Notes under the pieces: generated by a model
The model's input: the letters and a program-made list of their open reading frames with translations, nothing else
The model's database searches: none
What the model was told of the DNA's origin: nothing
Position numbers and translations under genes: made by a program
DNA from: a virus
Direction: 5' to 3' (one strand)
Virus record (IMG/VR): IMGVR_UViG_3300025646_007690
Location: 1 to 29,412 of that record
DNA: 29,412 nt
Shown here: positions 1,588-28,313 of the stretch, in pieces
Layout: every line of letters begins with the position of its first letter
Position numbering within the stretch: position 1 is the stretch's first letter

Positions 1588-2076
1588 ATGGCTAACATTA
1601 TTTTAGGTAATCTAGAAAAACCTAAAAATATATCTAAAAAGAAGCAGTTTACTTATGCTGATGTAAAAGTTGACTTTGAGTTTGATCAAACACAACAAGC
1701 AGCATTATATTCTAATCTTAAAGATAAAGATCTAGTTGGTAGTTATGATTTAGGTGCTATAGAAAATAGTATCGTAAATATATTTACTACCTTTCCCGGT
1801 GATAAAATTTTAAATCCTCAATTTGGTTTAAATTTAAATCAATATCTTTTTTTACCTTGTAATGATTCAACTGCTCAGAGAATAGGTAATATTATTAATA
1901 CCCAACTGTTATTACAAGAGCCAAGAATTAAACCTATAGAAATTGAAGTACTAGCAGACCCTGAAAATGATCAGTATAACATTAACATGGTACTAGGAGT
2001 GCCATTCATAAATAATAATACAACAATAAACTTTAAAGCATTGTTGAATTCAACCGGAATAGAATTTTATCAATAA
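1588..2076 (+). CDS. 25: Baseplate wedge protein, gp25-like
   Basis: Structural protein of the contractile-tail baseplate wedge, related to T4 gp25 and type VI secretion TssE. The core GPW/gp25 signature is visible around residues 50-90: a helix containing LGAIENSIVNIFTTFPGD followed by the conserved stretch around LNPQFGLNL, leading to a short loop and a second helix. At 162 aa it is a little longer than T4 gp25 (132), the excess being a Lys-rich N-terminus. It is followed by a gp6-like gene 2 nt downstream, the gp25-gp6 pairing seen in many T4-like genomes, so both identifications support each other. The start codon is fixed by the TATAAATA box 5 nt upstream; no Shine-Dalgarno is visible. 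Confidence 0.92.
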   Translation: MANIILGNLEKPKNISKKKQFTYADVKVDFEFDQTQQAALYSNLKDKDLVGSYDLGAIENSIVNIFTTFPGDKILNPQFGLNLNQYLFLPCNDSTAQRIGNIINTQLLLQEPRIKPIEIEVLADPENDQYNINMVLGVPFINNNTTINFKALLNSTGIEFYQ

Positions 2077-2078
2077 TC

Positions 2079-3905
2079 ATGGCAGAATCAGATTTTAGAA
2101 TAGAACAAGATGGTTACGTAGCATTTGATGCTGTTAGTCTCAAAGACTTGATCATCGAAAGAATGAACCAACAACAGGTTTTCACTGATCAAAACTATGA
2201 AGGTAGTAATCTATCTGCTATTATTGATATTGTAGCATATTCATATCATGTTCTTATCTATTATTTGAACAAGAACTCTTCTGAGAGTAATTTTAGTCAA
2301 GCTGAGTTATATGAAAATATTAATCAGATAGTTAAGAGTATTGATTATAACCCTACAGGGCCTCAAACATCTAATTTATCATTTGAAGCTACAGCTAACG
2401 CTAATTTAGCAACTAATTTATATACAATACCTAGATATAGTTATTTTACATTCAGCGGTACCTCTTTTAGTTTTACCGAAGATGTTTCGTTTCAAAAAAC
2501 TCTTAACGGTATTGAAGCTTTAACTAATTTACAAAACAACACATTACTTTATAATGGTCAGTTTGTTGAGTTTCCGGTGTTTGAGGCAATTGGTGAAAAT
2601 AACGAAGTTGCAACCCTAGCTGCATCTAATATAAACGACAACTTTTTCATTGATAATAACAGTATTGATGTTTATGTTAAACCTGCGGGTTTAGATACAA
2701 CTTGGGAGAAATGGTCAAGGTCAGCTTCTTTATATCTTGAGTCTGGAAGTGCTAAAAAATATTCAGTAAGATTTAATGAAGAAGAACAATATGAAATCAA
2801 GTTCGGTAATAATGTTAACGGTAAAAGATTAAATCAGGGAGATTTAGTACAAATTTATTATTTGAAATCTGATGGAGCTGAAGGTCAAGTTAGTAAAGGT
2901 TCTCTCAACAACCAACAGCTTTATTTTTATAATACTTCTACATTCAATCAAATTTTAACTGATACAACTTCTTCTGGTACCAATATTATTACTTCAGCTG
3001 AAAGTGCTAATGTAACATTTACAAATATTAATTCCTCAACATTGTTTAAAGAGAAAGAAACAGTAGCAGAAATTAAACAAAATGCACCTAACTTATTCAA
3101 TTCTCAGTATCGTTTAGTAACTACAGATGATTATAGAAATTATATAAGTAAGAATTTTGGTAATTGGATTAGATCCGTTGAAGTTGTAAACAATTTTGAT
3201 TATACTGCATTTTATCAAAAATACTTTTTTGATATTGGATTAGATAGACCTAATGATGATTCAAGAGTTTTGTTTAACCAAATTAATTTTGCTGATGCAT
3301 GTGATTTTAATAACGTTTATGTATTTGCAGTACCTAATAAAATATTAGAAACATCATTAGATATTAGAACTAATTATCTTTCAGTAGCTCAGAAGAATGC
3401 AATTAATATTTTGTTAAGTGATGTTAAGTCAGCAACTACTGAGTTAGTTGTAACAGACCCGGTTTACATGGAGTTAAATTTAGGGGTTACTCAAAGTGTT
3501 TCTGATTTTGACTTTGCAGATATTGCAGGAGATGAATCTTATCTTTATATTGAAGTTGATAAAAATTCTAGAAGAGATTTATCTTCAGTTAAAAACGAAG
3601 TAGCTTCAGTGTTTTTAAATTATTTTAATGTTAGTAATTTAGAATTAGGGCAGGTTGTTAGTTTAAAAGATTTGTCGCAATTAATATTAGATATTGACGG
3701 GGTTGCAGAATTTTCAACTAGAAGAAATTCATCATCAGGTACCATTATTAGTAATTTATTACAACTTGTTGTTTATAATCCAGTTTATGTTACAAGTGAT
3801 TTTAATTTTACTGAACAAGATATAGATTTACAATTTTTTCAATTCCCATATTTTAAAAATTTATCAACCATATCAGAAAGAATTGAAGTTATTAGACAAG
3901 GTTAA
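2079..3905 (+). CDS. 6: Baseplate wedge protein, gp6-like (baseplate J family)
   Basis: Forms the inner ring of the phage baseplate, where the gp6 dimer with gp7 and gp25 triggers sheath contraction (T4 knowledge). Recognisable from the N-terminal region typical of marine T4-like gp6: helices around SLKDLIIERM (21-30), then the conserved FTDQNYEGSNLSAIIDIVAY stretch (about 36-55) and the ELYENINQIVKSIDYNPTG segment (about 76-94). The length of 608 aa is close to T4 gp6 (660). The middle is beta-rich, with an FNEEEQYEIKFGNNVNGK-type segment found in the baseplate J fold; the C-terminal half includes the gp6 helical/beta region. The ATG starts 2 nt after the gp25-like stop and no promoter is seen, so it is translated from the gp25 transcript. 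Confidence 0.92.
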   Translation: MAESDFRIEQDGYVAFDAVSLKDLIIERMNQQQVFTDQNYEGSNLSAIIDIVAYSYHVLIYYLNKNSSESNFSQAELYENINQIVKSIDYNPTGPQTSNLSFEATANANLATNLYTIPRYSYFTFSGTSFSFTEDVSFQKTLNGIEALTNLQNNTLLYNGQFVEFPVFEAIGENNEVATLAASNINDNFFIDNNSIDVYVKPAGLDTTWEKWSRSASLYLESGSAKKYSVRFNEEEQYEIKFGNNVNGKRLNQGDLVQIYYLKSDGAEGQVSKGSLNNQQLYFYNTSTFNQILTDTTSSGTNIITSAESANVTFTNINSSTLFKEKETVAEIKQNAPNLFNSQYRLVTTDDYRNYISKNFGNWIRSVEVVNNFDYTAFYQKYFFDIGLDRPNDDSRVLFNQINFADACDFNNVYVFAVPNKILETSLDIRTNYLSVAQKNAINILLSDVKSATTELVVTDPVYMELNLGVTQSVSDFDFADIAGDESYLYIEVDKNSRRDLSSVKNEVASVFLNYFNVSNLELGQVVSLKDLSQLILDIDGVAEFSTRRNSSSGTIISNLLQLVVYNPVYVTSDFNFTEQDIDLQFFQFPYFKNLSTISERIEVIRQG

Positions 3906-3907
3906 AG

Positions 3908-6214
3908 ATGCCGATTTATAATACAGGATATTGGAAATTTAACAGTTATAATGTATTCGATGTTCAATCGTTATCATCTTATGCATTAGAGCAAACCCCT
4001 CTAAAATTTTTACCTACTAATCTTGCAGCTTCAGATTATAGCGATTATTATATCATTTGGGACTTTGGTGATGGTTCACCAAAAGTAAAAGATTTATCTG
4101 CTTCACATTATTATTTTTATCCTGGTGAATATAGAGTAACAATGACCGTTACTTTAACATCAGGTGATACTGTATTAGATTCATACGCTAATACAGTTAC
4201 AATAAAAGATTTTATACCTAATACTTTTGCATTCGAACAATTATCAGCTGAAAATTTTGAAATGTTATATTTGTCAGCAGGTAACTATTCACCTACTTTA
4301 ACTATTAATAGATTTAATAGTTTGCAAACTTATTCAGCTGATGGGTACTCATTCTTTTTAAATGCTAGTGGAAGTAATTCACTTTTTTATGATGAATCTA
4401 AATTAGCTAAAGAACCTTACGCTCATTTATTACCCACACATAGATTTGTAACTAGAGAGTTAATTAGAGATAGTTATAGTGATACAATAGTACATAAAGT
4501 TAAAACTAATGACACTAACTTATATGGTAAGTTAGATAGTAACTCATTAGTAATACCTACTTCATCATCAGATGTTAATGCATTTTTTGTAGGAACAAGT
4601 GGGTATGCTAATTTTAATTTTGTTGACGATTTTTATAGAAACGATAGTTACTACTTGTTAGCTACAATCGACACAGCAAACTTTCCAGACAATTATACAA
4701 AATATTTTAACTTACCTTATCATTCAGATTTACCTATAAAGAATACAAATTCTGTTTATTATAAAATAGCAGAAAATTCTTATATTGAACCTACTTCTAT
4801 ATCAATTACTTCTAATGGTATAGATGGTGAAGGTTTTACTTTAAACACATTTAACATAGGACCTGTCAAGTATGTTAATCAACCAATTAGTTTTGTTGCT
4901 AAATTAAAAAATAATTTGTATGATGTAAAAAATCAATCTTGGTTTTTAAATCCTGGGTTTTTAAATTTTGCTACAAATACTTTTAGTTTATCTGTAACTG
5001 ATGTACTAGGCAATAATGTTTTAAACGAATATGCTGAAGATTATATAACATTTGATCTTAATACTTTTAAAGATTATAGATATGGGTGGTTTAAAGGTAA
5101 TATAACTTTACCTTTATCTGCTTTTAGATATTATAATGCTGAGTTGCCTAATTTTAGATTAGAAGCATATATAGATACAGGTTCTGGTGTATTATCAGGT
5201 AGTAGTAGTTTCTTTCAAATAAATCCATTGAATAAAAATAAGGTAGCTAAAATAAATGAAAATTTTGATATGTCTACTTATATGAAAGATTTAGCGTTTC
5301 AGCCTTCGATTTATAAGAGACCAGAAATTTTTGATACATTCTTTGGAACCATTTTAGGTACATTAAGTTCTGATACTAATGCAGTAGGTAAACGAATATA
5401 CGAAAAGACATCTAACTTTATTAAAAACAATGTCAATATAGATACTTGTAATATTCAAAACTTGTACGGATTGGCATTAGAATATAATGTAGATTTAGAT
5501 GACTATGCTACAGCTAATTTATTAATTAATTACCCTGCAGATTTAGCAAGATTAGTAAATTTATTTTCAGTTAAAAAGTCATTACTATTTGGTAAACGTA
5601 ATCAGGATACATTTAACTTTAAAGATACTTACAGGCAGGGTACAAACTTTAATAACTTAGATTTAGCTACTACAAATTATTCTTTGGGTAAAAATAGAGG
5701 TAATAACACAGGTAACCCTATAGATATTTTAACAGGTGTTATTGATAAGAGAGATGATTATATAATTGCTTATGAATATTTTTCTGATCAATATACATTG
5801 TTAAGAACTAATGTAGTTAATGATATTAATTTAGACGTTAAATCACAAACATTATCTAGTTACCCGTTAAGTACCTTTAATAATAACTGGGGCTGGCCTT
5901 TGGTGTTACCAAACGGTTTCTTTAATGATCCAGATTACATATATACATTATCTTCTTATTATGCTTTTTATGAATATATTGATGTAGTACCAGGAGAATG
6001 GAATAATAACTTAATAAATTGGGAAGATACTTATCAAACAACAATAAATCTTTTAGGTAATAATCCTTTATCTAGCACATACTTACCATCTTATCTCAGC
6101 AGTTATAGAGGCACACCATTAGATGAAATGAATTGGGATTCATTAAGTGGTGTAGTAGCACAAAATTTAAATTATCAGTTAAGTGTTGGTCTTGAATTGT
6201 TGTCAGCTAACTAA
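3908..6214 (+). CDS. Large baseplate/tail protein with N-terminal PKD domain
   Basis: A 768-aa protein in the position where T4-like phages place gp7/gp8 wedge proteins. Residues ~30-98 form a PKD (Ig-like) domain: IIWDFGDGSP at 49-58 and HYYFYPGEYRVTMTV at 67-81 are the two hallmark strands. PKD domains usually mediate carbohydrate or protein contacts outside cells. The rest is beta-rich with many Asn, Tyr and Ser. The last ~300 residues begin with a helical stretch (around NFDMSTYMKDLAFQPSIYKR) and include DLARLVNLFSVKKSLLFGKR, which look like baseplate attachment segments. No catalytic motif is seen. It starts 2 nt after the gp6-like stop, with a weak AAGG upstream. The baseplate assignment rests on gene order; gp7 or gp8 homology cannot be told by eye. 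Confidence 0.8.
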   Translation: MPIYNTGYWKFNSYNVFDVQSLSSYALEQTPLKFLPTNLAASDYSDYYIIWDFGDGSPKVKDLSASHYYFYPGEYRVTMTVTLTSGDTVLDSYANTVTIKDFIPNTFAFEQLSAENFEMLYLSAGNYSPTLTINRFNSLQTYSADGYSFFLNASGSNSLFYDESKLAKEPYAHLLPTHRFVTRELIRDSYSDTIVHKVKTNDTNLYGKLDSNSLVIPTSSSDVNAFFVGTSGYANFNFVDDFYRNDSYYLLATIDTANFPDNYTKYFNLPYHSDLPIKNTNSVYYKIAENSYIEPTSISITSNGIDGEGFTLNTFNIGPVKYVNQPISFVAKLKNNLYDVKNQSWFLNPGFLNFATNTFSLSVTDVLGNNVLNEYAEDYITFDLNTFKDYRYGWFKGNITLPLSAFRYYNAELPNFRLEAYIDTGSGVLSGSSSFFQINPLNKNKVAKINENFDMSTYMKDLAFQPSIYKRPEIFDTFFGTILGTLSSDTNAVGKRIYEKTSNFIKNNVNIDTCNIQNLYGLALEYNVDLDDYATANLLINYPADLARLVNLFSVKKSLLFGKRNQDTFNFKDTYRQGTNFNNLDLATTNYSLGKNRGNNTGNPIDILTGVIDKRDDYIIAYEYFSDQYTLLRTNVVNDINLDVKSQTLSSYPLSTFNNNWGWPLVLPNGFFNDPDYIYTLSSYYAFYEYIDVVPGEWNNNLINWEDTYQTTINLLGNNPLSSTYLPSYLSSYRGTPLDEMNWDSLSGVVAQNLNYQLSVGLELLSAN

Positions 6215-6217
6215 TCA

Positions 6218-6225
6218 ATTAAATA
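6218..6225 (+). promoter_or_regulatory. Late-like promoter, ATTAAATA, 6 nt from ATG
   Basis: ATTAAATA lies between the stop of the PKD protein and the ATG at 6232, with a 6-nt spacer. It is the only element in the 17-bp gap and gives a (nearly) leaderless transcript for the 1032-aa gene. Confidence 0.55.
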
Positions 6226-6231
6226 TTATCA

Positions 6232-9200
6232 ATGCCAGTTAACACTATAGATCGTTTTAGTGATTATAAAATTGATAGATCAATTACCGTTCTTGGTAAT
6301 GTATCTGATGCTGATGATTATAATTTTCCATTTGATTTTAAGACCTGGCTATCTTACTTTAAAAACAATTCTACTACAATAACCACATTTCAAAGTTCTT
6401 ATAGAAAATATTTAACTTCTTGGAATAAAGTTAAAAATACATTTTTAGATCAGCAAAATAATTTAGTAAAGGAAAATTATCTATCATTATTAAAGCAGAT
6501 ATCGTTAGAGGTATATACTGAACAAGAAAGAAGGTTTTTAAATTCAATTGATTATAATGACCCGGATCAATTAGATGTACTCGTTCCTTTAGTATCAAAT
6601 AAGATACAATCTTTAACTACATATTATAAAGACTTTAGAGAAACCGTAAAGACAACACCTAAGAAAAATAATATCTTTTCTTCTAATTTAGGTATTAAGT
6701 CTTTTCTAACTAAACTTATTAGTGATCTTTTAAATTATAACTCCGATACAAGATCATTAGTATACAAATATGATAAAAATGTAGGGTATATTTTATCAAA
6801 TGTTAATTATGTTATTGATGAGTTATACGATCAATATGATGATTATTTTGATTTAACAGCATCAGAACCCGCATCAGCTTATCAATATGGAGGTGTTAAT
6901 AGAACTAATCAATGGACAAGTAACACCAATCCTTTTGACCCTGATTTATTTTTAAATTATGATAACTCAGTAGTTAGATTATTATCCGGTTACAATTATG
7001 TTTTAGAGAATTTTATTTCAAATTTTTCATTTCCAGTATCTATAACATCTGTAGATACAAATTATCTTAAAAATAAAGATTTTATTGATCAATATAATAA
7101 CGGTAATATTAATCAGTTAAATCTAATTAATAAGAAAAAATTATTTGAAAAATATTCAGGTACTGATTGGTATTATCTTTCAACTGGTGATGTAACATCA
7201 ACTATATTATCTGGACAATTTTTAAAAGCTGAAAATAAATCTCAAAACTTTTTAAACAGAAACAATGTAAGTACTGCAACGGTACCTAATACAGCATTTT
7301 TAGTTACTGCAAAAGATATTGGTGGTTTTTATACTCCTAATAATTTAGGTGTGTTGCAATACAATACATTTTCTTACGATTATTTTTTAAACACAGATTC
7401 ATTATCAGCTAATTCAATTTATTATTTTCCCGACCCTAACAAATATGTAGCTACTTACGGTAATTCTCGTTACAGTAAGTCAACTAATGTATTTGATATT
7501 AATGAAAATGCATACATTGTTAATTATGATATTAGTAATGGCTCTGCATTTGGTTATATAAATGATCGATCAGAGTATCTTAACTTTCATGGGTATGAAA
7601 ACAAAGAAGAGAAAAATAAGATATACTCTTCAGGTGTGTCTAGATTATACGATAAGGTAGATTTCTTTAAAGGTGTTAATGGTGATATTTGGAATAATGA
7701 AGATGTTTATAAGATATCTAATAAAGCTTTATTCCCTATAGATGATAGACAATCTAGATTAGGTATATCTCAAAAAGATTTAATATTTGATACATCAGAT
7801 GTTTATGGAAATAGTTATGGTTTTTATAAACAATCTACTCCTAGAGAATTTGTTAACTATACGGTTTCTACTAATTCAATTACCCATAGATGTTTGTTTT
7901 TCAGTAATGGTTTATTTGAGTATTCTAATTCAGAATTTAATTACAAAGATGATAATGCTGAAATATTCGGTGTTATTCCTGGTCAAACTTTTATAGTTAG
8001 TGATGTAACAATGTTAAGTAGTTCTTTTACTACTAATACATTGAGCAAATTTACATTTGGTGTGTTTGATATGCCTTGGTGTTTTACATCAGGTACTACT
8101 TACAGAAGAGGTAATATATATGATGGTTGTTTTTATACAACTTATGAAGGGGTTATTTTACCTGATACTCCTAGCTCAGATTCACCTTCTTGGAGTACAT
8201 CAGATCAATCACTTTACTATAACTTACTTTTAGATGCTGGTTCAGATATTAACGGTATAAGACCAAATTTTGCAAGACCTGCTACATTTTTAAAAGAATT
8301 AAGTTCAATTATTGATTGTGGTATATTTGATTATGCAACAGTTAGGCAAGAAAATCCTTTTGAATCTAATTTTGCTATAGCTAATAGGTATGAAATACCT
8401 TATTATTCTGATACTATTAGCAGTTTATCAACCACTTATGTAGATGAATCCGAAACTATACGTAGATCAATCTATGATAAAAAGTATGTTTTATCTGCTA
8501 CATCTTTATTTAGAGATATTAACAATTATGTATCTCCTCTTTCAGCAGCATTAAGTGCTATATTTGTTAAGTACAAAGCAGTTCCAGATATTTACGAAGA
8601 GTTAAATGATAATATTATCAAATTTGATGTTGTATTTGATGTAGCGATAATTGAAACTGATAATTACATGGTTGTAGAAAAGATAGATTACGACTATAAT
8701 ACCGGTAAAGTTCTATCATTTACAAACGAGTTAAATTATATCACTAGAACAACTCAAGGTGATAATAAATTAGAAAAATTTGGTAACTTTTTCTTCCATG
8801 AAAAGACAAATACATTATTGTTACATAGAACCACTTTATTAGGAGCTATGTCAGCTACTAATTATAGAACATTCTACCCTACTATATATAAATTAGAACT
8901 TGATAGTTTATCTCTTAAACGAATATTTCCTCATAGCACTAAAAATTTATTTGGTTCTCTTATAGAGTATAGTTTTAGATCTCATCATGACCCAGTCATG
9001 CAATCTTTAGGTACTACAGAACAATGTATTTATAATATGTATGAAGCTGATCGTCCAGTACTTACATATAACCCAGAAACAAATATCTACGGTTATGTTA
9101 TAAAAACTATAGATTCTTCTGATTGTATGGCATTTTGGTATCAGACATACAAATATATTAACGGTGTATTTACTAATGATATTAACGAGATCTGGTTTCA

Positions 9201-9330
9201 AAATGCTCAAGTAAGAGATGAAAATTATACTAACCCTCTAACCGGCTCATACATAAAATATAACTACCTTGAAGGTACAAATAATTCATCGTGGATTAAA
9301 CCTGAAGGTGTTTTGAAATTAGGAGAGTAA
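6232..9330 (+). CDS. Very large tail/baseplate structural protein (1032 aa)
   Basis: Not recognised beyond its class. It is a 1032-aa soluble protein, rich in Asn, Tyr, Ser, Asp and Phe, with no membrane segment or Thr repeats. The first ~200 residues contain long helical stretches with Lys/Gln (NTFLDQQNNLVKENYLSLLK and the segment after it), while the remainder is mostly beta. T4 gp7 has almost the same length and sits downstream of gp6, but I see no motif that would prove homology. It lies between the PKD tail protein and the fibre-like proteins in the same direction. ATG at 6232 is supported by an ATTAAATA box 6 nt upstream. Most likely a baseplate wedge or tail-fibre attachment protein; function inferred from position only. 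Confidence 0.8.
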   Translation: MPVNTIDRFSDYKIDRSITVLGNVSDADDYNFPFDFKTWLSYFKNNSTTITTFQSSYRKYLTSWNKVKNTFLDQQNNLVKENYLSLLKQISLEVYTEQERRFLNSIDYNDPDQLDVLVPLVSNKIQSLTTYYKDFRETVKTTPKKNNIFSSNLGIKSFLTKLISDLLNYNSDTRSLVYKYDKNVGYILSNVNYVIDELYDQYDDYFDLTASEPASAYQYGGVNRTNQWTSNTNPFDPDLFLNYDNSVVRLLSGYNYVLENFISNFSFPVSITSVDTNYLKNKDFIDQYNNGNINQLNLINKKKLFEKYSGTDWYYLSTGDVTSTILSGQFLKAENKSQNFLNRNNVSTATVPNTAFLVTAKDIGGFYTPNNLGVLQYNTFSYDYFLNTDSLSANSIYYFPDPNKYVATYGNSRYSKSTNVFDINENAYIVNYDISNGSAFGYINDRSEYLNFHGYENKEEKNKIYSSGVSRLYDKVDFFKGVNGDIWNNEDVYKISNKALFPIDDRQSRLGISQKDLIFDTSDVYGNSYGFYKQSTPREFVNYTVSTNSITHRCLFFSNGLFEYSNSEFNYKDDNAEIFGVIPGQTFIVSDVTMLSSSFTTNTLSKFTFGVFDMPWCFTSGTTYRRGNIYDGCFYTTYEGVILPDTPSSDSPSWSTSDQSLYYNLLLDAGSDINGIRPNFARPATFLKELSSIIDCGIFDYATVRQENPFESNFAIANRYEIPYYSDTISSLSTTYVDESETIRRSIYDKKYVLSATSLFRDINNYVSPLSAALSAIFVKYKAVPDIYEELNDNIIKFDVVFDVAIIETDNYMVVEKIDYDYNTGKVLSFTNELNYITRTTQGDNKLEKFGNFFFHEKTNTLLLHRTTLLGAMSATNYRTFYPTIYKLELDSLSLKRIFPHSTKNLFGSLIEYSFRSHHDPVMQSLGTTEQCIYNMYEADRPVLTYNPETNIYGYVIKTIDSSDCMAFWYQTYKYINGVFTNDINEIWFQNAQVRDENYTNPLTGSYIKYNYLEGTNNSSWIKPEGVLKLGE

Positions 9331-9345: not shown

Positions 9346-11532
9346 ATGCCAGCATCACCTATATACAATGTAAAAACAAATAACCTTTTATTAGAGGATA
9401 TATTAGATATCAGAAAAGATATTATTATATCAGGTGAGTTTTCTTTCTTCGGTTCATCTACTACTGGAGGAGAAGGATTTTGTATTTACTTTGTTAATGC
9501 TTGCACCGGCAATGATGTAGGAAGTCCTGGCCCTGGTTTAGGGTTTGCACCTACTGATGGTATCGTTGAGTTTAACGGTACAGATATATTTTCTGGTATA
9601 CCTAGTTCTATTTTAGGTATTGGTTTTGATGCTGCTGGTGATTTTGCTCTTCCTTTAGGCCCTGATATTGATGGTGATGTAGTATATCACCCTAACGCTA
9701 TTACTTTAAGACACGGTTCATTAAATGATTGGCAATATATTGCAAGTAGTGATAATGTTTCTGATTTAGGTTTTAGTATATATCAAACTTACGGTGATCT
9801 TTACCCTAAAGCTACAGCAACTTCTACAACAACATCTACTTTTACACCATCTAAAACATTTACTGCAACAGCTAACAGTACTGCAACTGCAACTCCAACT
9901 ACAACCCGCACATCAACAGTAACTAGTACACCTACAAAAACAACAACAAGAACGACAACACAATCAACAACTGTTACTAGTTCATTAAACAATTGTGTTA
10001 CACCTACAAAAACACCTACTAGAACGCATACCCCTACTTTAACTTATACTAATTCTTTAACTAAAACAAAAACACCCACGTCTACAGGATTGTATCCTAA
10101 ACGCCAAGCTTTTAAAATAAGATTATCTGATTACGGTAGAACAGCTTATGTTTATCTTAGAAATAACGCAGGTAATTTTGTTTTAGTTCATGAAGAAGAA
10201 CATCTTGATTTAATAAAACCTGAAAATGGTCAAATTCAAGTTGGCTTATCTTACTCTACTGGTATAAATTATTCAGCATTTCACATTTATAACTTTTCAG
10301 TTAATGGGGTTGGTTATGATAGCCCGTTTACACCTACACCAACAGCTACAAAAAATATCACAAGAACTTCTTCTCCTACCCCAACACCAACTTACACATT
10401 AACTTATACCCCCACGCAAAATCATTCACCCACGGTAACAAGATCTAATACACCAACACAGACAAATACTATTACAATAACAAATACAAATTTTGCTACA
10501 CCTACTCGCACTAGATCACAAACCCCTACACAAACAAGAACACCAACTAATACAAGAACATCTACTCAATTTTCTACTAGAACGCAGACACCTACTAATA
10601 CAAGAACATCTACTCAAACGCCTACTCAAACATCAACTCAAACACCTACCAGAACAAGCACTAGAACACCGACACAAACCCACACTTACACACCTACTGA
10701 ATTTAAGAGATTTATTGCAGCAGCAAATTCATCATATAAATTTGTATTTGAAAGTAACTGGGTAAACGCTGATAGTGCTGCAGCAGCAGTTAATGTTTTG
10801 ATTAATAATGCAAGATTTGGTATTAATAGAAATACTGGATCTACTAATTTAATAAATTTAATTACAACCTCTAATCCTAATGGAGTTGCTAATGATTTTG
10901 ATAGAAAGTATTTTAGAGCTTTCTTTTTTGATGGTACTGCTATAACTGGTCAACAACAATATGCTCCAGGTGTTGATGGTCAGACAACATGGCTTGGTAT
11001 ACCTTTTGTGGAAAATAAATCATCTACGTCTAACCCTAATACAGACTTTAGAGATGGTATTTCTTCTAACGTTTACCAAGCATTAAAGATTTTAGTTAAT
11101 ACTGGCGATGCATTAGATGATACTTTAATTTACATTAATAAAACAGATAACTCTAATGAACGTCCTAACCCTGCACAAAATTCAGGCGAAAATTTTAACA
11201 TTTGGGGTATTGATGGATTAACTTCTAATTATAAGACCGTAACATTTGATGCATCTAATAATGATAGGTATGTTATAAACTATAACGGTACAGGAAGAAT
11301 ATTATATAATTATGATTATATTGAAAATGATTCAGATAGACCTAACTTCATAGCTACCCCTGATAGTTATAGGGTGTTGCCAAATATTAGGTACTTAAGA
11401 GTTAATACCGGTAACATTGATATATCGTTCAGTTATGCAACTGAATTAATTAACTATATTGACAACTCTTCTACTAGTTCGACATCCTATTGGGGAGCAA
11501 GATTAACACTATTTACAAACGTAAGACAATAA
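9346..11532 (+). CDS. Putative receptor-binding tail fibre: split lectin-like domain with Thr/Pro/Arg repeats
   Basis: A 728-aa mosaic. Residues ~20-150 look like the first part of a legume-lectin/LamG-type jelly roll (GGEGFCIYFV, GPGLGFAP, SSILGIGFDAAGDF, NAITLRHGS). Residues 156-248 are a Thr-rich linker (TTTRTSTVTSTPTKTTTRTT-like). Residues 253-327 (FKIRLSDYGRTAYVYLRN, then IQVGLSYSTG and FHIYNFSVNG) look like the missing C-terminal strands of the same lectin fold. Residues ~329-450 are a second Thr/Pro/Arg linker and ~451-728 an unknown, probably beta-rich C-terminal domain. The tetrapeptide LYPK borders the first linker on both sides. This suggests an exposed, sugar-binding fibre or adhesin. 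It is followed 1 nt later by a related-style gene. The lectin call is from motif pattern only; a LamG-like or other jelly roll is possible. Confidence 0.75.
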   Translation: MPASPIYNVKTNNLLLEDILDIRKDIIISGEFSFFGSSTTGGEGFCIYFVNACTGNDVGSPGPGLGFAPTDGIVEFNGTDIFSGIPSSILGIGFDAAGDFALPLGPDIDGDVVYHPNAITLRHGSLNDWQYIASSDNVSDLGFSIYQTYGDLYPKATATSTTTSTFTPSKTFTATANSTATATPTTTRTSTVTSTPTKTTTRTTTQSTTVTSSLNNCVTPTKTPTRTHTPTLTYTNSLTKTKTPTSTGLYPKRQAFKIRLSDYGRTAYVYLRNNAGNFVLVHEEEHLDLIKPENGQIQVGLSYSTGINYSAFHIYNFSVNGVGYDSPFTPTPTATKNITRTSSPTPTPTYTLTYTPTQNHSPTVTRSNTPTQTNTITITNTNFATPTRTRSQTPTQTRTPTNTRTSTQFSTRTQTPTNTRTSTQTPTQTSTQTPTRTSTRTPTQTHTYTPTEFKRFIAAANSSYKFVFESNWVNADSAAAAVNVLINNARFGINRNTGSTNLINLITTSNPNGVANDFDRKYFRAFFFDGTAITGQQQYAPGVDGQTTWLGIPFVENKSSTSNPNTDFRDGISSNVYQALKILVNTGDALDDTLIYINKTDNSNERPNPAQNSGENFNIWGIDGLTSNYKTVTFDASNNDRYVINYNGTGRILYNYDYIENDSDRPNFIATPDSYRVLPNIRYLRVNTGNIDISFSYATELINYIDNSSTSSTSYWGARLTLFTNVRQ
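9811..10089 (+). repeat. Thr-rich coding repeat, block 1 (inside lectin-like domain)
   Basis: Imperfect tandem codon repeats of ACA/ACT with CCT and AGA, encoding T-x-T-x and TPTKTPTRT-type units. The plus strand is almost free of G here. The block separates two halves of what looks like one lectin-like domain. Confidence 0.8.
10330..10700 (+). repeat. Thr/Pro/Arg coding repeat, block 2
   Basis: About 120 codons of degenerate TPT-(Q/R/N)-T units. It contains a 24-nt exact direct repeat at 10546-10569 and 10594-10617, 48 nt (16 codons) apart, encoding NTRTSTQ twice. This shows recent unit duplication. The strand is A/C-rich and G-poor. Confidence 0.85.
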
Positions 11533-11533
11533 A

Positions 11534-13591
11534 ATGGCTCATAAACATATATTTTATGTAACAGGTACAGATGTAAGCGTGTTAAGCGCTCAAGAAGCTT
11601 CTGGTTATTTTTATCAAAACCCTATTGATGGAAGCAGTGACTTTTATACTAACACAGCAAGTAGTATGAGCTTTAATGACAGTACATACTCTCAATTATT
11701 TTCAGCCAGTAATTTTGATAGTGGTGTCTTTAATTATAAAAGATCTACAATAATTGATTTAAGTGCAGTTAGATATAGTGAGTTTGATACTATTGTTTTT
11801 AATCTTTCTGGTATTGATGACTCTACAAATACAATTGTTAAAATGTTATTTGAACCTGAAGATGGTATCATTCAAACCGTTACGTATAAAAATAACGAAT
11901 TAATATTTGATAAAAATTTACCTTATAATTTAGTCATTGGAGGTAATACAGGAAGTAACCCTAAAAATGTTTTATATTCTTACGACTATACTTTAGAAGA
12001 AGAGCATCCTTTTGAAAGAACATTTCAAACTCGATTTTCTGCTTATAGACAAGATGGTATGATTGATGAATATCTTTTACCTCTTAGAGTAGCTAGAGAT
12101 AGTATCTATAATGTTGCTGATAAATTTAATTTATTAGACGCTACTATTTTACCTTTATCATCTAAAGATTTGATGATAAAAATGGAGTTAGAAAATCCTA
12201 ATTACGTAAATCATTTTGCAATAAAACGTGACATTACCCCAACACCTACAAGATCCTTAACCCCTACTAATACTCAACAAGCAACCCATACTAGAACACC
12301 TACTCCTACGTTCACAAGAACATCATCTCAAACACCAACAAAAACAAGAACAAGAACACAAACTAAAACACGTACTTATACCCCCACATCTACAATAACA
12401 AGAACTAGATCAAGAACCAGTTTTGTAACTAGAACTAAAACCCCTACTTTAACAAAATCTCGTTCACCGATAAACATTAACATACCGGTCACACCCCCTC
12501 CAACCCCGGCAGTTTCATTAGCACAAGATTGTAAAAGCAAAGAATTTACTTTAACTTATGAAGGTATAAACGATACTGTTGATCCTTCTACAGTAAAATT
12601 AGGTTTACAATATAATTATTCAGATGATGTTAAATCATATTTTGCAGTTGATATTCAACAAATTTTAGAAAGTAATACCGTTAAAGTTTATTTACCTGTA
12701 ACATCAACTGACTACACGGTTACTCCTTATGTATATTTTGAAGGAGACGACCCTGGCATTACTGTAACAAGTGTAATAGTGACTAACAATTGTTCAGGTC
12801 ATACTGTTACTTCTTTTACTCCTCCCCCTCCACCGGTGATTCCACCACCGGTGATTCCACCCCCTCCGGTAATACCACCCCCTCCGGTAATACCACCAAA
12901 AATTATAACTACACCTAACATCCAATCTGTGTTTCAGTTTGGTTATGGTCCAATTGTAGATAGCCCTATAGTTGTAAATTTACCTGCTCAGGATGGATAT
13001 GGTGACTTTTTACCTTTACCGGCTTTATATCAAGTAGGTAATCAACAAGTTTGTAATATTGTAGTTAACTGGAAAATTATTAAATCACAAAGATCTATTT
13101 TGGAAATGATAGATTCTATGACAGTTAACGGAAAAGTACAACCTATTTTACCAGCCGGGGCAGTTCAAGTAGCTAAAGGGGAACGATCCGGTAGGTCTGA
13201 AAGTTTTAATGAAAATGGGTTATATTTGGGACCTGCTATAACTACATCTTACCCATGGTATGAAGCTATCGACGGTACAAGATATTTCATGTGGGCTTAT
13301 GTGCAGGTAACTAATGTTGTTGATGATTTTAGTTATTATGAACGATGGAATGAATGTCATAGTACAATAAATCTTAATCAACCTACGGGGTATGAAATGA
13401 GATTACAAATTTTAAATCAAATTCAATACCCCGGAAAATATCCAGAAGCTGATCCCGAATTTACCGACATTCTTACGATACCTACTTGTAAATTCCCGGC
13501 ATTTGAATATACTATTATACAAAATATGATATCTTATGACAAATGGGTACAGGATGGACAACCTCCCACTTTTACAATAACAAATAGTTAA
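11534..13591 (+). CDS. Putative tail fibre/adhesin with Thr/Pro/Arg and poly-Pro linkers
   Basis: A 685-aa mosaic protein starting 1 nt after the previous fibre-like gene, without a promoter of its own. Residues 1-234 are an unknown beta-rich domain; 235-311 a Thr/Pro/Arg/Ser linker of the same style as in the upstream gene; 320-425 an Ig-like beta domain bounded by Cys (SLAQDCKSKEFTLTY to VTNNCSG); 428-455 a proline linker built of PPPPVIPP units; and 456-685 a C-terminal domain with aromatic-rich strands. No catalytic motif. Sharing the T-P-T-R linker with its neighbour suggests linker exchange by recombination and a joint role in host recognition. The fibre role is inferred from position and architecture. 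Confidence 0.75.
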   Translation: MAHKHIFYVTGTDVSVLSAQEASGYFYQNPIDGSSDFYTNTASSMSFNDSTYSQLFSASNFDSGVFNYKRSTIIDLSAVRYSEFDTIVFNLSGIDDSTNTIVKMLFEPEDGIIQTVTYKNNELIFDKNLPYNLVIGGNTGSNPKNVLYSYDYTLEEEHPFERTFQTRFSAYRQDGMIDEYLLPLRVARDSIYNVADKFNLLDATILPLSSKDLMIKMELENPNYVNHFAIKRDITPTPTRSLTPTNTQQATHTRTPTPTFTRTSSQTPTKTRTRTQTKTRTYTPTSTITRTRSRTSFVTRTKTPTLTKSRSPININIPVTPPPTPAVSLAQDCKSKEFTLTYEGINDTVDPSTVKLGLQYNYSDDVKSYFAVDIQQILESNTVKVYLPVTSTDYTVTPYVYFEGDDPGITVTSVIVTNNCSGHTVTSFTPPPPPVIPPPVIPPPPVIPPPPVIPPKIITTPNIQSVFQFGYGPIVDSPIVVNLPAQDGYGDFLPLPALYQVGNQQVCNIVVNWKIIKSQRSILEMIDSMTVNGKVQPILPAGAVQVAKGERSGRSESFNENGLYLGPAITTSYPWYEAIDGTRYFMWAYVQVTNVVDDFSYYERWNECHSTINLNQPTGYEMRLQILNQIQYPGKYPEADPEFTDILTIPTCKFPAFEYTIIQNMISYDKWVQDGQPPTFTITNS
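12236..12470 (+). repeat. Thr/Pro/Arg coding repeat, block 3
   Basis: Degenerate codon repeat encoding TPTPTR, TRTPTPTFTR, TKTRTRTQTKTR-type units, the same vocabulary as blocks 1 and 2 in the upstream gene. Probably a flexible or extended linker; the high Thr content also makes it a possible O-glycosylation target (inference). Confidence 0.85.
12818..12897 (+). repeat. Proline-rich tandem repeat
   Basis: Tandem units of about 15-18 bp encoding P(3-4)VI: two copies with CCGGTGATT followed by two with CCGGTAATA. The codon change between the pairs suggests stepwise duplication. Encodes a stiff poly-proline linker. Confidence 0.85.
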
Positions 13592-14515: not shown

Positions 14516-14871
14516 ATTCTGAAGAAGAGTATGAAGATACTTTTCAAGAACCAGAACCAGAACAACAGGCCCCGGAACCAATATTTGAATACAACCCCGA
14601 TCCAGAAGAACATTCACACCCAGTAAATCTAGTTCCACAAAAAATAAAACAAATCGTAAATGAAAACGATTTAATTAATGAAATTACTGAATTTTCAGAG
14701 TACTTGGATAGAGAGTATGAAGCTCTCTATCCTATTGTTATAGAAAATGATGTAACTAGAAATAGTAGAAGGGTCGATCAAGAGGTTCAAAGAGAACTTG
14801 AACGAAGATTAGATTTAGTCGATTATATTAGAAGATTATTTCAAGAACGTATAGAAGGATTAGTTAAATGA
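14512..14871 (+). CDS. Hypothetical protein with Glu/Pro-rich N-terminus (119 aa)
   Basis: Not recognised. Residues 1-50 are acidic and low complexity (EPEPEQQAPEP and similar) and likely disordered. Residues ~55-119 are predicted helical and charged (VDQEVQRELERRLDLVDYIR). GTG at 14512 overlaps the upstream TGA, and its own TGA overlaps the ATG of the glycosyltransferase by 4 bp, so it is translationally coupled on both sides. Confidence 0.6.
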   Translation: MNSEEEYEDTFQEPEPEQQAPEPIFEYNPDPEEHSHPVNLVPQKIKQIVNENDLINEITEFSEYLDREYEALYPIVIENDVTRNSRRVDQEVQRELERRLDLVDYIRRLFQERIEGLVK

Positions 14872-15692
14872 TTAATGTTTTATTTGCTACATGCGCGATT
14901 GGTGAAAAATATAATGAGAGATGTATAACCTCTCTTAAAGCTTACGATAAACTAAATTACGATAAGACAGATGAGCTAGTTATCTATACTGATGATGTAG
15001 ACAGATATAAAGATATTGAAACTAAAATTAAACTAACTGTAAGGCCATTTAGTATCAATCTTTCAGGTAATAAGTTTAGAGATAATACAATACTAAAACA
15101 TCTTATGCTTACATCTGCATTATCTAATGATAATGAGCATGAGATATATTGTTGGTATGATTGTGATGCATTTCCTATTATAGATAAAGATAGAATGCAA
15201 GAGTATGCAAACTATGATAAAGGTATCTATTACAAAGATGCTCATACATTTGCGAAGTTTGAAGATGTTTTATCTCACCACATTTATACCGATAGAGGTA
15301 AAAGATATAATACATACACCTTCTTAAACGTTACACATAAGGATAACATGCTTGTTGAGTATGCTCTTAATGATAAAGAAGAGATTACCTTTCCTGTTGA
15401 GACTTGTTTATTGTTTAACAGAGACTTATCTTCGCAATCATACCTACAGAAAGAGAAAGTATATATCAATACTACCATTGATGTAGTTAAGTATTGTATG
15501 GACTTTCATTTGAACGACAACTATGGTGAGAGTTTTGAATTAGGTATTATAATTGGTAAGAGTTTTAATAAAATAAAACAAATGCCAGTTATACCGTGCA
15601 TGTGTGACTTTCATTATATGCCAGCTGATTCAACTCAGCAGGATGTTGAAAGATATAAAGACCGTACTTTATATAAAGAGTTTTTATTATGA
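14868..15692 (+). CDS. Glycosyltransferase-like protein (GT-A fold, DCD motif)
   Basis: A 274-aa protein with the layout of a GT-A, nucleotide-sugar-dependent glycosyltransferase: an N-terminal Rossmann-like start (INVLFATCAIG), a conserved TDD element (41-43) and a DXD-type motif WYDCDAFPI with DCD at 98-100, expected to bind metal and sugar nucleotide. It lacks membrane segments and is probably cytosolic. A second protein of the same design, with DCD at nearly the same position, is encoded at 21575-22408. Coupled by an ATGA overlap to the upstream ORF and overlapping the carbamoyltransferase by 6 bp tail to tail. Substrate unknown: host surface glycan, phage DNA bases or fibre Thr residues are all possible. 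Confidence 0.7.
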   Translation: MINVLFATCAIGEKYNERCITSLKAYDKLNYDKTDELVIYTDDVDRYKDIETKIKLTVRPFSINLSGNKFRDNTILKHLMLTSALSNDNEHEIYCWYDCDAFPIIDKDRMQEYANYDKGIYYKDAHTFAKFEDVLSHHIYTDRGKRYNTYTFLNVTHKDNMLVEYALNDKEEITFPVETCLLFNRDLSSQSYLQKEKVYINTTIDVVKYCMDFHLNDNYGESFELGIIIGKSFNKIKQMPVIPCMCDFHYMPADSTQQDVERYKDRTLYKEFLL

Positions 15693-17420
15693 TTTTTTGA
15701 AGACCGTAACGTCAGGTAAGTACTTTGATTTAATAATCAAACCATTCATATCTTCTTTACCCATAATTGCAAATGCATCTTTGTATGTATTGAGAATAGG
15801 CTTACCTGCAACGTTAAAAGAAGTATTCAACAACACAGGAATAAATCCTTTATTAGCTGCTTCAGTAAGCATATCATACATAAGCTCATTCTGCTCTCTA
15901 GTTACGGTTTGTATTCTAGCAGTACCATCTGAGTGAGTAATACTTGCTAATTGCTCTCTATATTCTTCTTTGACATAAGCAGCAAAGTTCATATGTCTAC
16001 TTTCACCTTCCCAGTCAAAGTAAGTAGATACATCTTCTAATCTCACAATAGGAGCAAATGGTCTAAAAAACTCTCTATGTTTAACTCTATCATTTAAAAC
16101 CTTCTTCATTCCCTCTGCAGGAGAGCATATGATAGATCTGTTACCTAATGCTCTTGGTCCATGCTCAGCTCTTCCTTGAACAACTCCATAGATGTGTTTG
16201 TCTTTAAAAATTTGATCTATTATCTTGCTTAAGTTAAGAGGTTCAAACACTCTACCTTCAATCATATAGCTAAAGATATCGTTATCATCATATACCTCTT
16301 CCCCTGCATAAGTAAGATCCATTGGTTCTTCTGGTCTTAGATAATCAATAACTAAACCAGTACTCAAACCGCAATCAGATGAATTAGGTGCAATGTAAAC
16401 ATCTTTGCCGTGTGTCTTTCTTACATAATCTCTTATACGAGTATTGTAAAGAATATTCATACCACACCCACCAGTGATACAAACATTAGTTTTATAAAAG
16501 TCTATTAACTTCTTTACTTCATTAAAATGAAGCTCTTCAAATACATATTGACTTGTAGCAATTAAATCTTTAGCATCATTCCCTTTTAATCTATTTTCTC
16601 CTGATGCATGTCCGTGTTCATTAAAGTCAAAATGTAAACCTATCTTACTACCTAAATCACCCAAGTATTGTTCGGCTTTGTCTTCAACTGGATTCCAACC
16701 TACCCTATTCCATTTAGAGTAATAATCTTTAATAGGTTCAATCCAATCTTCTCTTACACTACCATACGAACAATACCCCATAAGCTTACCAGCATATGTT
16801 AAGCAAGCTTCACCATAGTCATGAATGTATTTGATATCATCTATAAAATAACCTAGATAGAAATAAGGATTGCCGTAATCATTAAAAGAGAAATGAATCG
16901 TTTTCATTTGTTTATCTCTTTCCTTCTTTCTATCAAAATGATATCCTAAATTCCATCCATCATCTCCCCCTCCATCAAAAGAGAAGACTAAAGCTTCATC
17001 AAAAGGGCTTTGATAAAATGTACCTGCAGCGTGTGATTTATGATGAAATGCAGCCCACCCATCACCGCTTGTTTCATTTGTATCACTGCATCCTTCAATC
17101 TGATTACCTTCGCTATCTAATCTTACTTGATTATGTTCAATCAGATCAACATTAAAGAATCTACCTATCTGTTTATTCTCCCAATCTGAGTTAATACTTC
17201 TTATTACATCTATTTTATCAATACCATATTTTTCTTTTATATAGTGTTTGATTATTTTAGTCATATACTCACCATCCATACGAGGCATAAAGTTACACCA
17301 TGCTAAGTTTTTATGATTGAATAGTCTCTCTAATTCTATAGCAATAAACTCCCCTTTATTATAGATAGTAATGCCAGCATTATGGCCTCCTGATATACCT
17401 GCTATGACTTTATCTTGCAC
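15687..17420 (-). CDS. Carbamoyltransferase (NodU/CmcH/TobZ family)
   Basis: Transfers a carbamoyl group from carbamoyl phosphate, via carbamoyl-adenylate, to a hydroxyl of a sugar or similar substrate. The 577-aa length is that of a full two-domain enzyme. The N-terminal Kae1/YrdC-type ATPase domain shows SGGHNAG (10-16), the metal-binding HHKSH (126-130) followed by AAGTFYQSPF, and FDGGGDDG (149-156). Further on come ITGGCGMN, PNSSDCGLSTG, and the conserved C-terminal elements GRAEHGPRALGNRSI, FFRPFAPI and LNTSFNVAGKP. It starts with GTG at 17420, 33 bp from the divergent membrane-protein gene, with a GATAAGTA box 5 nt upstream. Family members modify antibiotics, Nod factors and surface glycans; the phage substrate is unknown. 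Confidence 0.93.
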   Translation of the reverse strand: MQDKVIAGISGGHNAGITIYNKGEFIAIELERLFNHKNLAWCNFMPRMDGEYMTKIIKHYIKEKYGIDKIDVIRSINSDWENKQIGRFFNVDLIEHNQVRLDSEGNQIEGCSDTNETSGDGWAAFHHKSHAAGTFYQSPFDEALVFSFDGGGDDGWNLGYHFDRKKERDKQMKTIHFSFNDYGNPYFYLGYFIDDIKYIHDYGEACLTYAGKLMGYCSYGSVREDWIEPIKDYYSKWNRVGWNPVEDKAEQYLGDLGSKIGLHFDFNEHGHASGENRLKGNDAKDLIATSQYVFEELHFNEVKKLIDFYKTNVCITGGCGMNILYNTRIRDYVRKTHGKDVYIAPNSSDCGLSTGLVIDYLRPEEPMDLTYAGEEVYDDNDIFSYMIEGRVFEPLNLSKIIDQIFKDKHIYGVVQGRAEHGPRALGNRSIICSPAEGMKKVLNDRVKHREFFRPFAPIVRLEDVSTYFDWEGESRHMNFAAYVKEEYREQLASITHSDGTARIQTVTREQNELMYDMLTEAANKGFIPVLLNTSFNVAGKPILNTYKDAFAIMGKEDMNGLIIKSKYLPDVTVFKKS

Positions 17421-21441: not shown

Positions 21442-21586
21442 GGGACTTCTTTACCAAGGTAAAAGAAGCTGGACAAAAGATCGCAACAAAGCATTATCAT
21501 TTAACAATTATACAATTGCAACACAAAAGATGTTATCTGACTTTTATTTCTTCAGAGATTGTAAAGCTCAGTTTTTAAATACCTAA
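21425..21586 (+). CDS. Small basic hypothetical protein (53 aa)
   Basis: ATG 21425 to TAA 21584-21586; starts MIKNDKGLLYQGKRSWTKDR and continues with an aromatic-rich helix (MLSDFYFFRDCKAQF). It overlaps the previous ORF by 17 bp and the convergent glycosyltransferase by 12 bp, and otherwise fills a gap. TATAAT (21412-21417) lies 7 nt before the ATG, as in other early-type genes, though no good -35 is seen. Function unknown. Confidence 0.5.
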   Translation: MIKNDKGLLYQGKRSWTKDRNKALSFNNYTIATQKMLSDFYFFRDCKAQFLNT

Positions 21587-22408
21587 CATAGATATAATTT
21601 CATCTTCTGTATCTTTTCTATCTATAACTAATCCAAAGTAGTTTAATATCTTTAGAGGTTTGTCTACACCTTGTTGTTCTTTTTCAGAAGCTACCCCGTG
21701 TATCATATTGCAGTAATTTGCTATTTCAATCTGTCTTGATACCCCAGTAGCTTTCATCTTAGCATGTTGACCTGCCATGCAAAAGAAAGTACTTTCAGGG
21801 TGAGTGCACTCGTTTGCTTTTTCACAAAGTCGGGATATTTCATCCCATTTATCGAGCATTACCTTTAGTTTATCATTATTCTTATACAGCATACGAGTTT
21901 CAACTCCTAGTACCGCATCAAGCATTTCTTCAGTAACTGCTTCTTTGACAGAGTTAACTCTTCGTCCTGTGTTGGGGTGATCTTTTGGATTGTCTATTTG
22001 TACTCTTACTGTATGGTGAGGGTAAAAAGTAGCATAGTATACGTCAAAGTCTTCCTCTAACATTTTAAGATAACTTTCATTATGCCATCCTGAATAAAAG
22101 CAATCACAATCGTTATAAAAAATGTAATCAAAATTTAATTCACTACATAACTTGATAGGGTATCTTTTTAAATTAAAATTAAATGTACCATATACCTCTT
22201 TAGGGTCATTAGGATAAAGCTCGTTAAAATCTCTAATAAAAACTCTTTCATTATTATAGTTGAACTTATCTGGCTTGTCCGTTAACATTAGGATAGAGAA
22301 GTTAGTATGTTTCAAAACAGAGTCAATCAAAATCTTAGATCGTTTGAAATATTGATTAGATTTTTCTCTCTCTCCGTCGATACAGATACTTCCTATTATT
22401 GTCTTCAT
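21575..22408 (-). CDS. Glycosyltransferase-like protein, second copy (GT-A fold, DCD motif)
   Basis: A 277-aa protein of the same design as the one at 14868-15692: N-terminal strand IGSICIDGE, a TDKPDKF element (43-49), and YNDCDCFYSG with DCD at 100-102. Later conserved-looking parts are HPESTFFCMAGQH, which may form the acceptor/donor pocket, and a His in NMIHGV near the end. No membrane segment. It probably transfers a sugar from a nucleotide donor; donor and acceptor unknown. Divergent from the RadA-like gene, with a CTTAAATA box 7 nt upstream of ATG 22408. It could be a paralogue of the first copy or an independent gain from the same family. Confidence 0.68.
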   Translation of the reverse strand: MKTIIGSICIDGEREKSNQYFKRSKILIDSVLKHTNFSILMLTDKPDKFNYNNERVFIRDFNELYPNDPKEVYGTFNFNLKRYPIKLCSELNFDYIFYNDCDCFYSGWHNESYLKMLEEDFDVYYATFYPHHTVRVQIDNPKDHPNTGRRVNSVKEAVTEEMLDAVLGVETRMLYKNNDKLKVMLDKWDEISRLCEKANECTHPESTFFCMAGQHAKMKATGVSRQIEIANYCNMIHGVASEKEQQGVDKPLKILNYFGLVIDRKDTEDEIISMLGI

Positions 22409-24776: not shown

Positions 24777-25502
24777 GTGAAGCATATGAAAATGATTAAT
24801 TTGGAGGTGGTATCTCCTCCCAGGTGCGGTAGCACTTTACTTTGGCATTTCTGTAAATATAATGTTGCAGGAAAAAATAATGGTTTCTTTCAAATAGATA
24901 ATAATGTAAATAAATCTCACCCTCCTTTTGAAAGCGATCACATAAAGTTAAGCAACTTTGACTTTCATACATATTATATTGTTACTGTTAGACACCCTTT
25001 TAGTCAGTTAGCTTCTTTATTAGTATATGATAATAAGAATGAAAATAATACATATGATACATCTTCATTATCTGAAAGATATGTGATGGGTAAAGTTGAT
25101 GAATCTATTAGAGATTTTAAATGGTGTTATGATATTTTAAAAAATAATACTTTCAATACCGTATTATTTAAATATGAAAGATTTGTAAATGAATATAACT
25201 ATTTCTTTGAACATTTTCAAGAAGTATTTGGGTTTGAATATAATGAAGAGGATCGTAATAATTTTTACGAAAACTTTGGTTTAGAAGTTGTAAATTCTAG
25301 AGTAGGTTCAGAAGGATATATAGGTTATTCTCAAAATCATGTAAGTGTAAATCAAGGTAACAATGAAGAAAATATAAAATATATACCTAAACGATTTAGA
25401 AAAGCTATTCAGAACAAATATATTAGATCAGGAGTATATGATATGTTTAATTATTTTCCTGTTACTTTAGATGGTATAGAATATTTACCTTCTTACCCTT
25501 AA
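24777..25502 (+). CDS. Sulfotransferase-like P-loop protein, copy 1 (241 aa)
   Basis: Matches the PAPS-dependent sulfotransferase fold: 5'-phosphosulfate loop SPPRCGSTLLWHF (13-25, P-R-x-G-S-T core) and 3'-phosphate-binding VRHPFSQLASLL (about 65-76, Arg and Ser conserved), followed by LFKYERF, the usual strand after the helical insert. It would transfer sulfate from PAPS to a sugar hydroxyl or tyrosine. Starts possible at GTG 24777, ATG 24786 or ATG 24792. Unlike its neighbours it is preceded by a structured leader. Its stop overlaps the convergent gene by 4 bp. A second protein of this type is encoded at 26537-27238. The acceptor is unknown. Confidence 0.75.
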   Translation: MKHMKMINLEVVSPPRCGSTLLWHFCKYNVAGKNNGFFQIDNNVNKSHPPFESDHIKLSNFDFHTYYIVTVRHPFSQLASLLVYDNKNENNTYDTSSLSERYVMGKVDESIRDFKWCYDILKNNTFNTVLFKYERFVNEYNYFFEHFQEVFGFEYNEEDRNNFYENFGLEVVNSRVGSEGYIGYSQNHVSVNQGNNEENIKYIPKRFRKAIQNKYIRSGVYDMFNYFPVTLDGIEYLPSYP

Positions 25503-26089: not shown

Positions 26090-26520
26090 TTATAGACTTT
26101 AAATGGTGCTGTTCTATCTTTATAGCCACCAAAGTCTTTTCTAAAATCTTCTAATCTTGGTTCTATTTCATCACTCTTGATTATCCAAAATTGAGCTCCT
26201 GCTTTCATGGCTTTAGCTTGTTCAGTTTCATCATTAGAGCTTGATATAATCCCTATGACAACCCCATCTCCGTGTACAAAGTTTATACGTCTACATAATT
26301 CAATCCCATCGAAACTACTCCCTATAATATTAAGATCAACAAATATACAATCTGGTTTAGATAAATTGTTGTCTACTATATTTTTAAAGTACTTTTCTGC
26401 TTCGTCAGCACTACTCATTGCTTTTAAAGATAAAGTTATATCAAGCAAAGAACATGCATCTTCAAAGACTAAATGAAACAGGTCTTCATCGTCAACTAAA
26501 AGAATGGAGTCAATCATCAT
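26086..26520 (-). CDS. Receiver-only response regulator (CheY-like), 144 aa
   Basis: A complete receiver domain with all key residues: acidic pair Asp10/Asp11 in LLVDDEDLF, phospho-acceptor Asp62 in CIFVDLNIIG, the Ser of GIISSSNDE (about 93-94) in place of the common Thr/Ser, and Lys115 in WIIKSDE. No DNA-binding or enzymatic output domain follows; only a ~20-residue tail. It should accept phosphate from the histidine kinase encoded two genes upstream. Signalling would then be through protein contact, as with CheY or Spo0F. An ATTAAATA box lies 13 nt upstream of ATG 26520, so this gene may also have its own transcript with a short leader. Confidence 0.9.
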   Translation of the reverse strand: MMIDSILLVDDEDLFHLVFEDACSLLDITLSLKAMSSADEAEKYFKNIVDNNLSKPDCIFVDLNIIGSSFDGIELCRRINFVHGDGVVIGIISSSNDETEQAKAMKAGAQFWIIKSDEIEPRLEDFRKDFGGYKDRTAPFKVYK

Positions 26521-26533
26521 GGCATCTGTTTAT

Positions 26534-28308: not shown

Positions 28309-28313
28309 ATTAA

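Follow-up and report, generated by a model that had tools for sequence, protein, structure and literature searches.

A threonine-rich arm within a predicted L-type-lectin-like domain of a putative phage baseplate adhesin

A 728-aa open reading frame (ORF) is found at positions 9346-11532 of the window, i.e., the whole 29,412-nucleotide stretch of the uncultivated virus record IMGVR_UViG_3300025646_007690. Structure prediction and homology show that residues 1-150 and 253-328 of the encoded protein form a single L-type-lectin-like beta-sandwich, whose halves are separated by a long arm in which Thr residues mostly follow a two-residue register (Thr-X). This interruption of the lectin chain is real and common to seven related phages. 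We propose, at a probability of roughly 0.55, that the protein acts as an adhesin of the baseplate, its head being of the lectin type and its Thr arms, glycosylated by the phage, serving as a spacer or shield.

The split-lectin ORF and the baseplate cluster

The ORF starts 15 bp past the end of the preceding gene, and all of its parts described here are on the + strand. The first lectin half (residues 1-150; positions 9346-9795) has AF2 pLDDT values mostly of 62-93, and an N-half HMM matches it in the insert-free relatives. The low-confidence stretch that follows and forms the Thr-X arm (residues 151-249; 9796-10092) includes the Thr block proper (residues 156-248; 9811-10089), which is bordered by one LYPK motif at residues 152-155 (9799-9810) and by another at residues 249-252 (10090-10101). 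The second lectin half (residues 253-328; 10102-10329), with pLDDT of 73-93 over residues 251-320 and with counterparts in insert-free relatives that a C-half HMM matches, is joined to the C-terminal domain (residues 456-728 and the stop codon; 10711-11532) by a second Thr-X block that forms a putative stalk (residues 329-455; 10330-10710). The C-terminal domain is conserved in the insert-bearing family, with 46-94% identity in four contigs. A previous sequence-only reading had described the split jelly roll at positions 9346-10330. This interval is correct for the split domain, but it covers only residues 1-328, and the protein continues past position 10330 with the second Thr-X block and the 273-aa C-terminal domain. 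The next gene (11534-13591, + strand) encodes a 685-aa protein with a Thr-X block of its own (residues 233-308; about 12230-12457).

Upstream of the split-lectin ORF is a baseplate cluster (1588-9330, + strand) that includes the genes for a gp25-like protein (1588-2076; PF04965, phrog_261), a gp6-like protein (2079-3905; phrog_219, E = 7.5e-45), a PKD-containing protein of 768 aa (3908-6214; PF18911) and a 1032-aa protein (6232-9330). The same baseplate gene order is found in the relatives L001 and L002 and a similar one in L009. Relatives of the gp6-like protein among named phages are distant, with ~25% identity, and are mostly cyanophages. A phage collection yielded no match when queried with the whole split-lectin protein, its L009 homologue, the L016 lectin or the 1032-aa neighbour, and no relative was found in the bacterial and archaeal genomes scanned with the lectin N half. 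We infer that the product of the split-lectin gene is an adhesin that is associated with the baseplate of this T4-like phage.

One predicted lectin fold across both halves

The AF2 model of the window protein, which was built on a nine-sequence alignment, has a mean pLDDT of 69.2 and a pTM of 0.66 as a whole, with pLDDT values of ~62-93 in both lectin halves and below 50 over the linker 151-249. Features of the first half are strands up to E131-134 and 147-148, the loop-A motif GEGF (residues 42-45), a loop-B-like motif SPGPGLG (residues 60-66) and VEF (residues 74-76), and those of the second half are strands 254-261, 266-272, 278-284, 296-304 and 311-319 and the loop-D-like motif STGINYSAF. 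The best 50 Foldseek matches listed for the PDB are L-type lectins or lectin-domain carbohydrate-binding proteins, with E-values from 2.1e-5; ERGIC-53, the peanut and pea lectins, VIP36 and an archaeal legume-lectin domain are among the matches listed. Because the alignments are ~320-350 columns long and span the query and the targets are mostly of ~230 residues, the linker is a gap in these alignments and both halves lie on one lectin domain. That a lectin-type jelly roll, with early strands at residues ~20-150 and late strands at 253-327, is split by a Thr-rich insert had been suggested from the letters of the DNA, and this is borne out by the AF2 model, the Foldseek matches and natural insert-free relatives; with the insert present, both halves fall on a single lectin fold rather than on two independent domains. 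The matches of a PDB sequence search were essentially to low-complexity Thr/Pro and were taken as composition artefacts, and Pfam matches to DUF6267 and Med13_C (E of 0.1-0.6) were discarded, as they overlap the Thr block.

Relatives with an uninterrupted domain were searched for and five were found (L016, L017, L009, L010 and L018), all from uncultivated viruses, in which the lectin fold is retained and the two halves are ~9-17 residues apart vs. ~105 in the window. They were compared with the window protein at the level of sequence only. In a nine-locus alignment, seven loci have the insert, two are without it, and the gap coincides exactly with the Thr block. A MAFFT alignment (A6), in which the C halves of L009 and L010 were paired with the Thr block, was replaced by separate N-half and C-half profiles. 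These were made from the insert-bearing members and used to search the five insert-free relatives together with 2000 shuffled copies. The N-half HMM scores 63-97 bits in all five relatives (best shuffle, 6.5), and the C-half HMM gives ~26 bits with both L016 and L017 and 14 bits with L010, against a best shuffle of 7.9. For L009 and L018, the C-half scores of 8.5 and 6.3 bits are low and close to or inside the range of the shuffles, yet the matches are at the right place.

In an unrooted tree of the lectin halves, one branch with a support of 0.998 parts the insert-bearing from the insert-free members, and no loss of the insert was found among the clade members. Given that a Thr-rich stalk follows the lectin both in the lineage of the window and in L009, L010 and L018, a single insertion is the simplest reading of these sequences, by which Thr-X sequence would have been gained once in a surface loop in the lineage of the window; as the tree is unrooted, a single ancient loss of the insert is possible. 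The LYPK pair had also been likened to a duplicated junction. Both copies are present (codons CTTTACCCTAAA and TTGTATCCTAAA), with 9 of 12 bases the same and all differences synonymous, but the repeat is exact only in the window. The border pairs of the seven insert-bearing members are LYPK/LYPK (window), LYPK/LYPR, LVPG/LYPI, LAPV/IYPN, DAPA/IFPN, KYPS/INPI and KYPI/LNPP, and one Pro at each border is common to all seven. Since only this Pro is shared, the pair is no evidence of a target-site duplication, and that reading was rejected. Thus, the split lectin fold of the sequence-only reading stands and its duplicated junction does not.

Searches of Pfam and NCBIfam to E = 1 matched no L-type lectin family (e.g., Lectin_legB), and a weak match to Laminin_G_1 (E = 0.056) was found in one family member. 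The canonical Ca/Mn ligands of L-type lectins (the VEFDxxxN...D...H region) are not conserved in the family: among the insert-bearing members, the residue following VEF varies (N, D, G, E or L), and there is no His before IGFD. Of 12 members, 11 have Glu or Asp (Glu43 in the window) at the acidic position of loop A (ADGF in legume lectins), and L013 has Ala. Sugar binding by the lectin-like head is plausible but may be lost or changed, as the canonical metal ligands are not conserved.

Thr-X tracts and nearby glycosyltransferase genes

The low-complexity Thr block that had been noticed at residues 156-248 was confirmed, with 44 Thr among its 93 residues, and 39 of these 44 are in one phase of the two-residue register. 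The register is without exception in the second block (54/54) and in that of the neighbouring 685-aa protein (32/32), and in every Thr block tested the phase bias was reached by none of 2000 shuffles. It is present in all seven insert-bearing members, down to ~50% identity, and the length of the insert varies among them. Thr makes up 34-47% of the tracts, and the other positions are occupied by Pro, Ser, Arg, Lys, Asn, Gln, Ala and others, with no acidic residue in the window insert; Pro is found at 7 of the 49 non-Thr positions of the first block and at 16 of the 73 of the second. Such extended, low-complexity tracts rich in Ser, Thr and Pro are mucin-like in character. The insert is disordered in the AF2 model, by which the arm is predicted to be disordered or extended and to leave the lectin fold intact.

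Between the window and L001, 39 of the 98 Thr codons of both blocks have synonymous changes only and six have nonsynonymous ones, and nonsynonymous changes are found at 24 of the 122 other positions of these blocks. Change at Thr codons thus appears to be mostly synonymous, which is suggestive only, Thr being fourfold degenerate. DNA-level repeats in the Thr tracts are weak (hexamer- and 12-mer-type), indicating that the Thr tract is not a fresh microsatellite.

A conserved downstream gene (14868-15692, + strand) is predicted to encode a GT-A-fold glycosyltransferase. The AF2 model of its product has a mean pLDDT of 78.7 and a pTM of 0.80, and its best 50 Foldseek matches listed for the PDB are GT-A glycosyltransferases (best E = 1.1e-6), including xyloside xylosyltransferase, alpha-1,3-galactosyltransferase, blood-group transferases and LARGE1. 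The DxD motif (D98 and D100) is invariant in five sequences; no Pfam match was found for this gene. Four insert-bearing contigs continue beyond the fibre genes, and each of them has this gene ~1.1-1.4 kb downstream of the Thr-rich pair; three of the four also contain a gene for a NodU/CmcH-type carbamoyltransferase (15687-17420, - strand, in the window; PF16861, E = 4.5e-54; PF02543, E = 5.4e-23), which is possibly a glycan-decorating enzyme. The sister phage L009, which is insert-free and has Thr-rich stalks, contains a PF11397 gene 33 bp after its second Thr-rich fibre gene (E = 8.4e-73; 246 bits vs. a curated cut-off of 21). PF11397 corresponds to CAZy family GT60. This family includes the polypeptide alpha-GlcNAc transferases of Trypanosoma cruzi and of Skp1 (PMC6939170). 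PF11397 was looked for in the window record and is absent from it, and neither the GT-A gene nor PF11397 was found in L016, a 90-kb record with no Thr-rich tract near the lectin. In this small sample, the pattern of gene presence fits O-glycosylation of the Thr-X tracts. Because Thr-rich tails and a GT60-type gene occur in the insert-free L009 as well, the link to glycosyltransferases would concern Thr-X tracts generally and not the insert. Phage glycosyltransferases may have other targets, such as DNA or host polysaccharide.

Several other genes were observed. At 11203-14165 of L009, a 230-kb uncultivated virus contig, an HtrL_YibB-type gene comes after the PF11397 gene, and both are directly after the two Thr-rich fibre genes. 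In the window, a two-component set on the - strand (25499-28338) comprises a PAS/HATPase histidine kinase (27235-28338; E = 1.1e-16), a response-regulator receiver (26086-26520; E = 2.5e-10) and a protein (25499-26089) in which a coiled coil and hydrophobic stretches resembling membrane segments were recognized by eye. Two genes (24777-25502, + strand; 26537-27238, - strand) have no Pfam match and contain, by eye, the sulfotransferase-like motifs PRCGST and PRSGGT near the N-terminus and a later RHP. A possible nucleotide-sugar-transferase-like protein with a DCD motif (FYNDCDCF) and no convincing Pfam match is encoded at 21575-22408 (- strand), and a low-molecular-weight phosphotyrosine-phosphatase-like protein, just under the Pfam cut-off (E = 0.00034), at 28356-28883 (+ strand).

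Readings of the arm and known systems

According to the reading that we prefer, a Thr-X tract of ~95 residues entered the loop just before the strand AFKIRLSD in the lineage of the window, most simply once, and has been retained, as the comparison of the relatives shows. During infection, glycosyltransferases that are encoded by the phage, with genes that adjoin the fibre genes, would O-glycosylate the Thr hydroxyls of the arm and of the second block. The mucin-like arm would space, hydrate and shield the head, and the lectin-like head would contact host surface glycans. The probable role of the arm is that of a glycan-covered spacer or shield at the end that binds the receptor. The sequence-only suggestion that the arm may be glycosylated and located on the tip of a fibre is plausible.

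It is conceivable, although rather doubtful, that the insert is an unmodified, near-neutral disordered spacer, which arose when Thr-X sequence of the adjacent stalk, or of the fibre gene, was copied into a surface loop tolerant of insertion, and which was retained because it is harmless or adds reach. The occurrence of three Thr-X tracts inside 3 kb in two adjacent genes, the site of the insert in a surface loop between strands, its variable length and the weak DNA repeats all favour such copying, but the Thr register kept in seven of seven members to ~50% identity, the mostly synonymous change at Thr codons and the retention of the insert throughout the clade members found point to constraint. 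We regard it as very improbable that the Thr-X strands form ordered beta-structure (a hairpin or trimeric fibre) instead of a disordered arm: alternating Thr is compatible with an extended strand and AF2 places strands at 157-169 and 233-245, but these have pLDDT of only ~35-45, and many non-Thr positions are Pro, which is unfavourable to sheets.

Counted from loop D, strand 296-304 runs up, 278-284 down, 266-272 up and 254-261 down, and this counting of antiparallel strands in the AF2 model and its Foldseek alignments suggests that the arm exits from the binding-loop end. An arm leaving near the binding loops might be a self-ligand or gate, with its glycans filling the lectin-like site until a glycan of the host takes their place. 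The position of the insertion and the nearby glycosyltransferase gene would suit this mechanism, but the ligand-site residues are non-canonical and the identity of arm glycan and head ligand is an assumption only, and we consider it very unlikely. The joint version, in which a phage-glycosylated, mucin-like arm beside the receptor-binding lectin's own loops carries glycans that act as self-ligand or gate for adsorption, is likewise a long shot.

Setting these alternatives beside the glycosylated spacer or shield that we prefer, the protein can be compared with several known systems. L-type lectins (ERGIC-53, peanut and pea lectins, VIP36 and the M. jannaschii domain) are its best PDB matches (probability of 1.00; TM-score by target of ~0.5-0.6 for single-domain L-type lectin entries) and are similar in the overall beta-sandwich and in the GEGF, VEF, IGFD and STG motifs, which occur in the expected order, whereas the phage protein has a Thr-X arm before the AFKIRL strand and its metal ligands are not conserved. 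The nick of two-chain legume lectins is located elsewhere, in a loop about two strands further on. The insert-free phage lectins, i.e., those of L016, L017 and L009/L010/L018 and BFVD A0A6J7XBQ8 of an uncultured Caudovirales phage, have the same lectin-like domain, with ~26-30% identity to the window. L009, L010 and L018 also have the baseplate gene order and the Thr-rich stalk after the lectin in common with the window, but these three, L016 and L017 have no insert within the lectin.

Mucin-like O-glycosylated proteins similarly contain long, extended tracts rich in Ser, Thr and Pro, and here a candidate glycosyltransferase gene is nearby; in contrast to them, the window arm has a strict two-residue Thr-X register and is set inside a folded lectin, and its glycosylation is putative. 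Work cited in PMC12619734 reports that, in virions of Mycobacterium phages, capsid and tail-tube subunits are glycosylated at their C-termini. None of the papers covered by our literature search describes a Thr-X arm inside a lectin. If the arms are glycosylated, these uncultivated T4-like phages would have an O-glycosylation system that is compact and phage-encoded, and the shielding of virions by glycans could be tested in them. That the L-type lectin fold tolerates the insertion reveals a permissive site. Heads of the lectin type, stalks of low complexity and glycosylated virions are already known singly; here they are linked in one probable receptor-binding protein by a long Thr-X arm in the middle of its lectin sandwich, conserved across a phage clade and with a predicted glycosyltransferase gene alongside.
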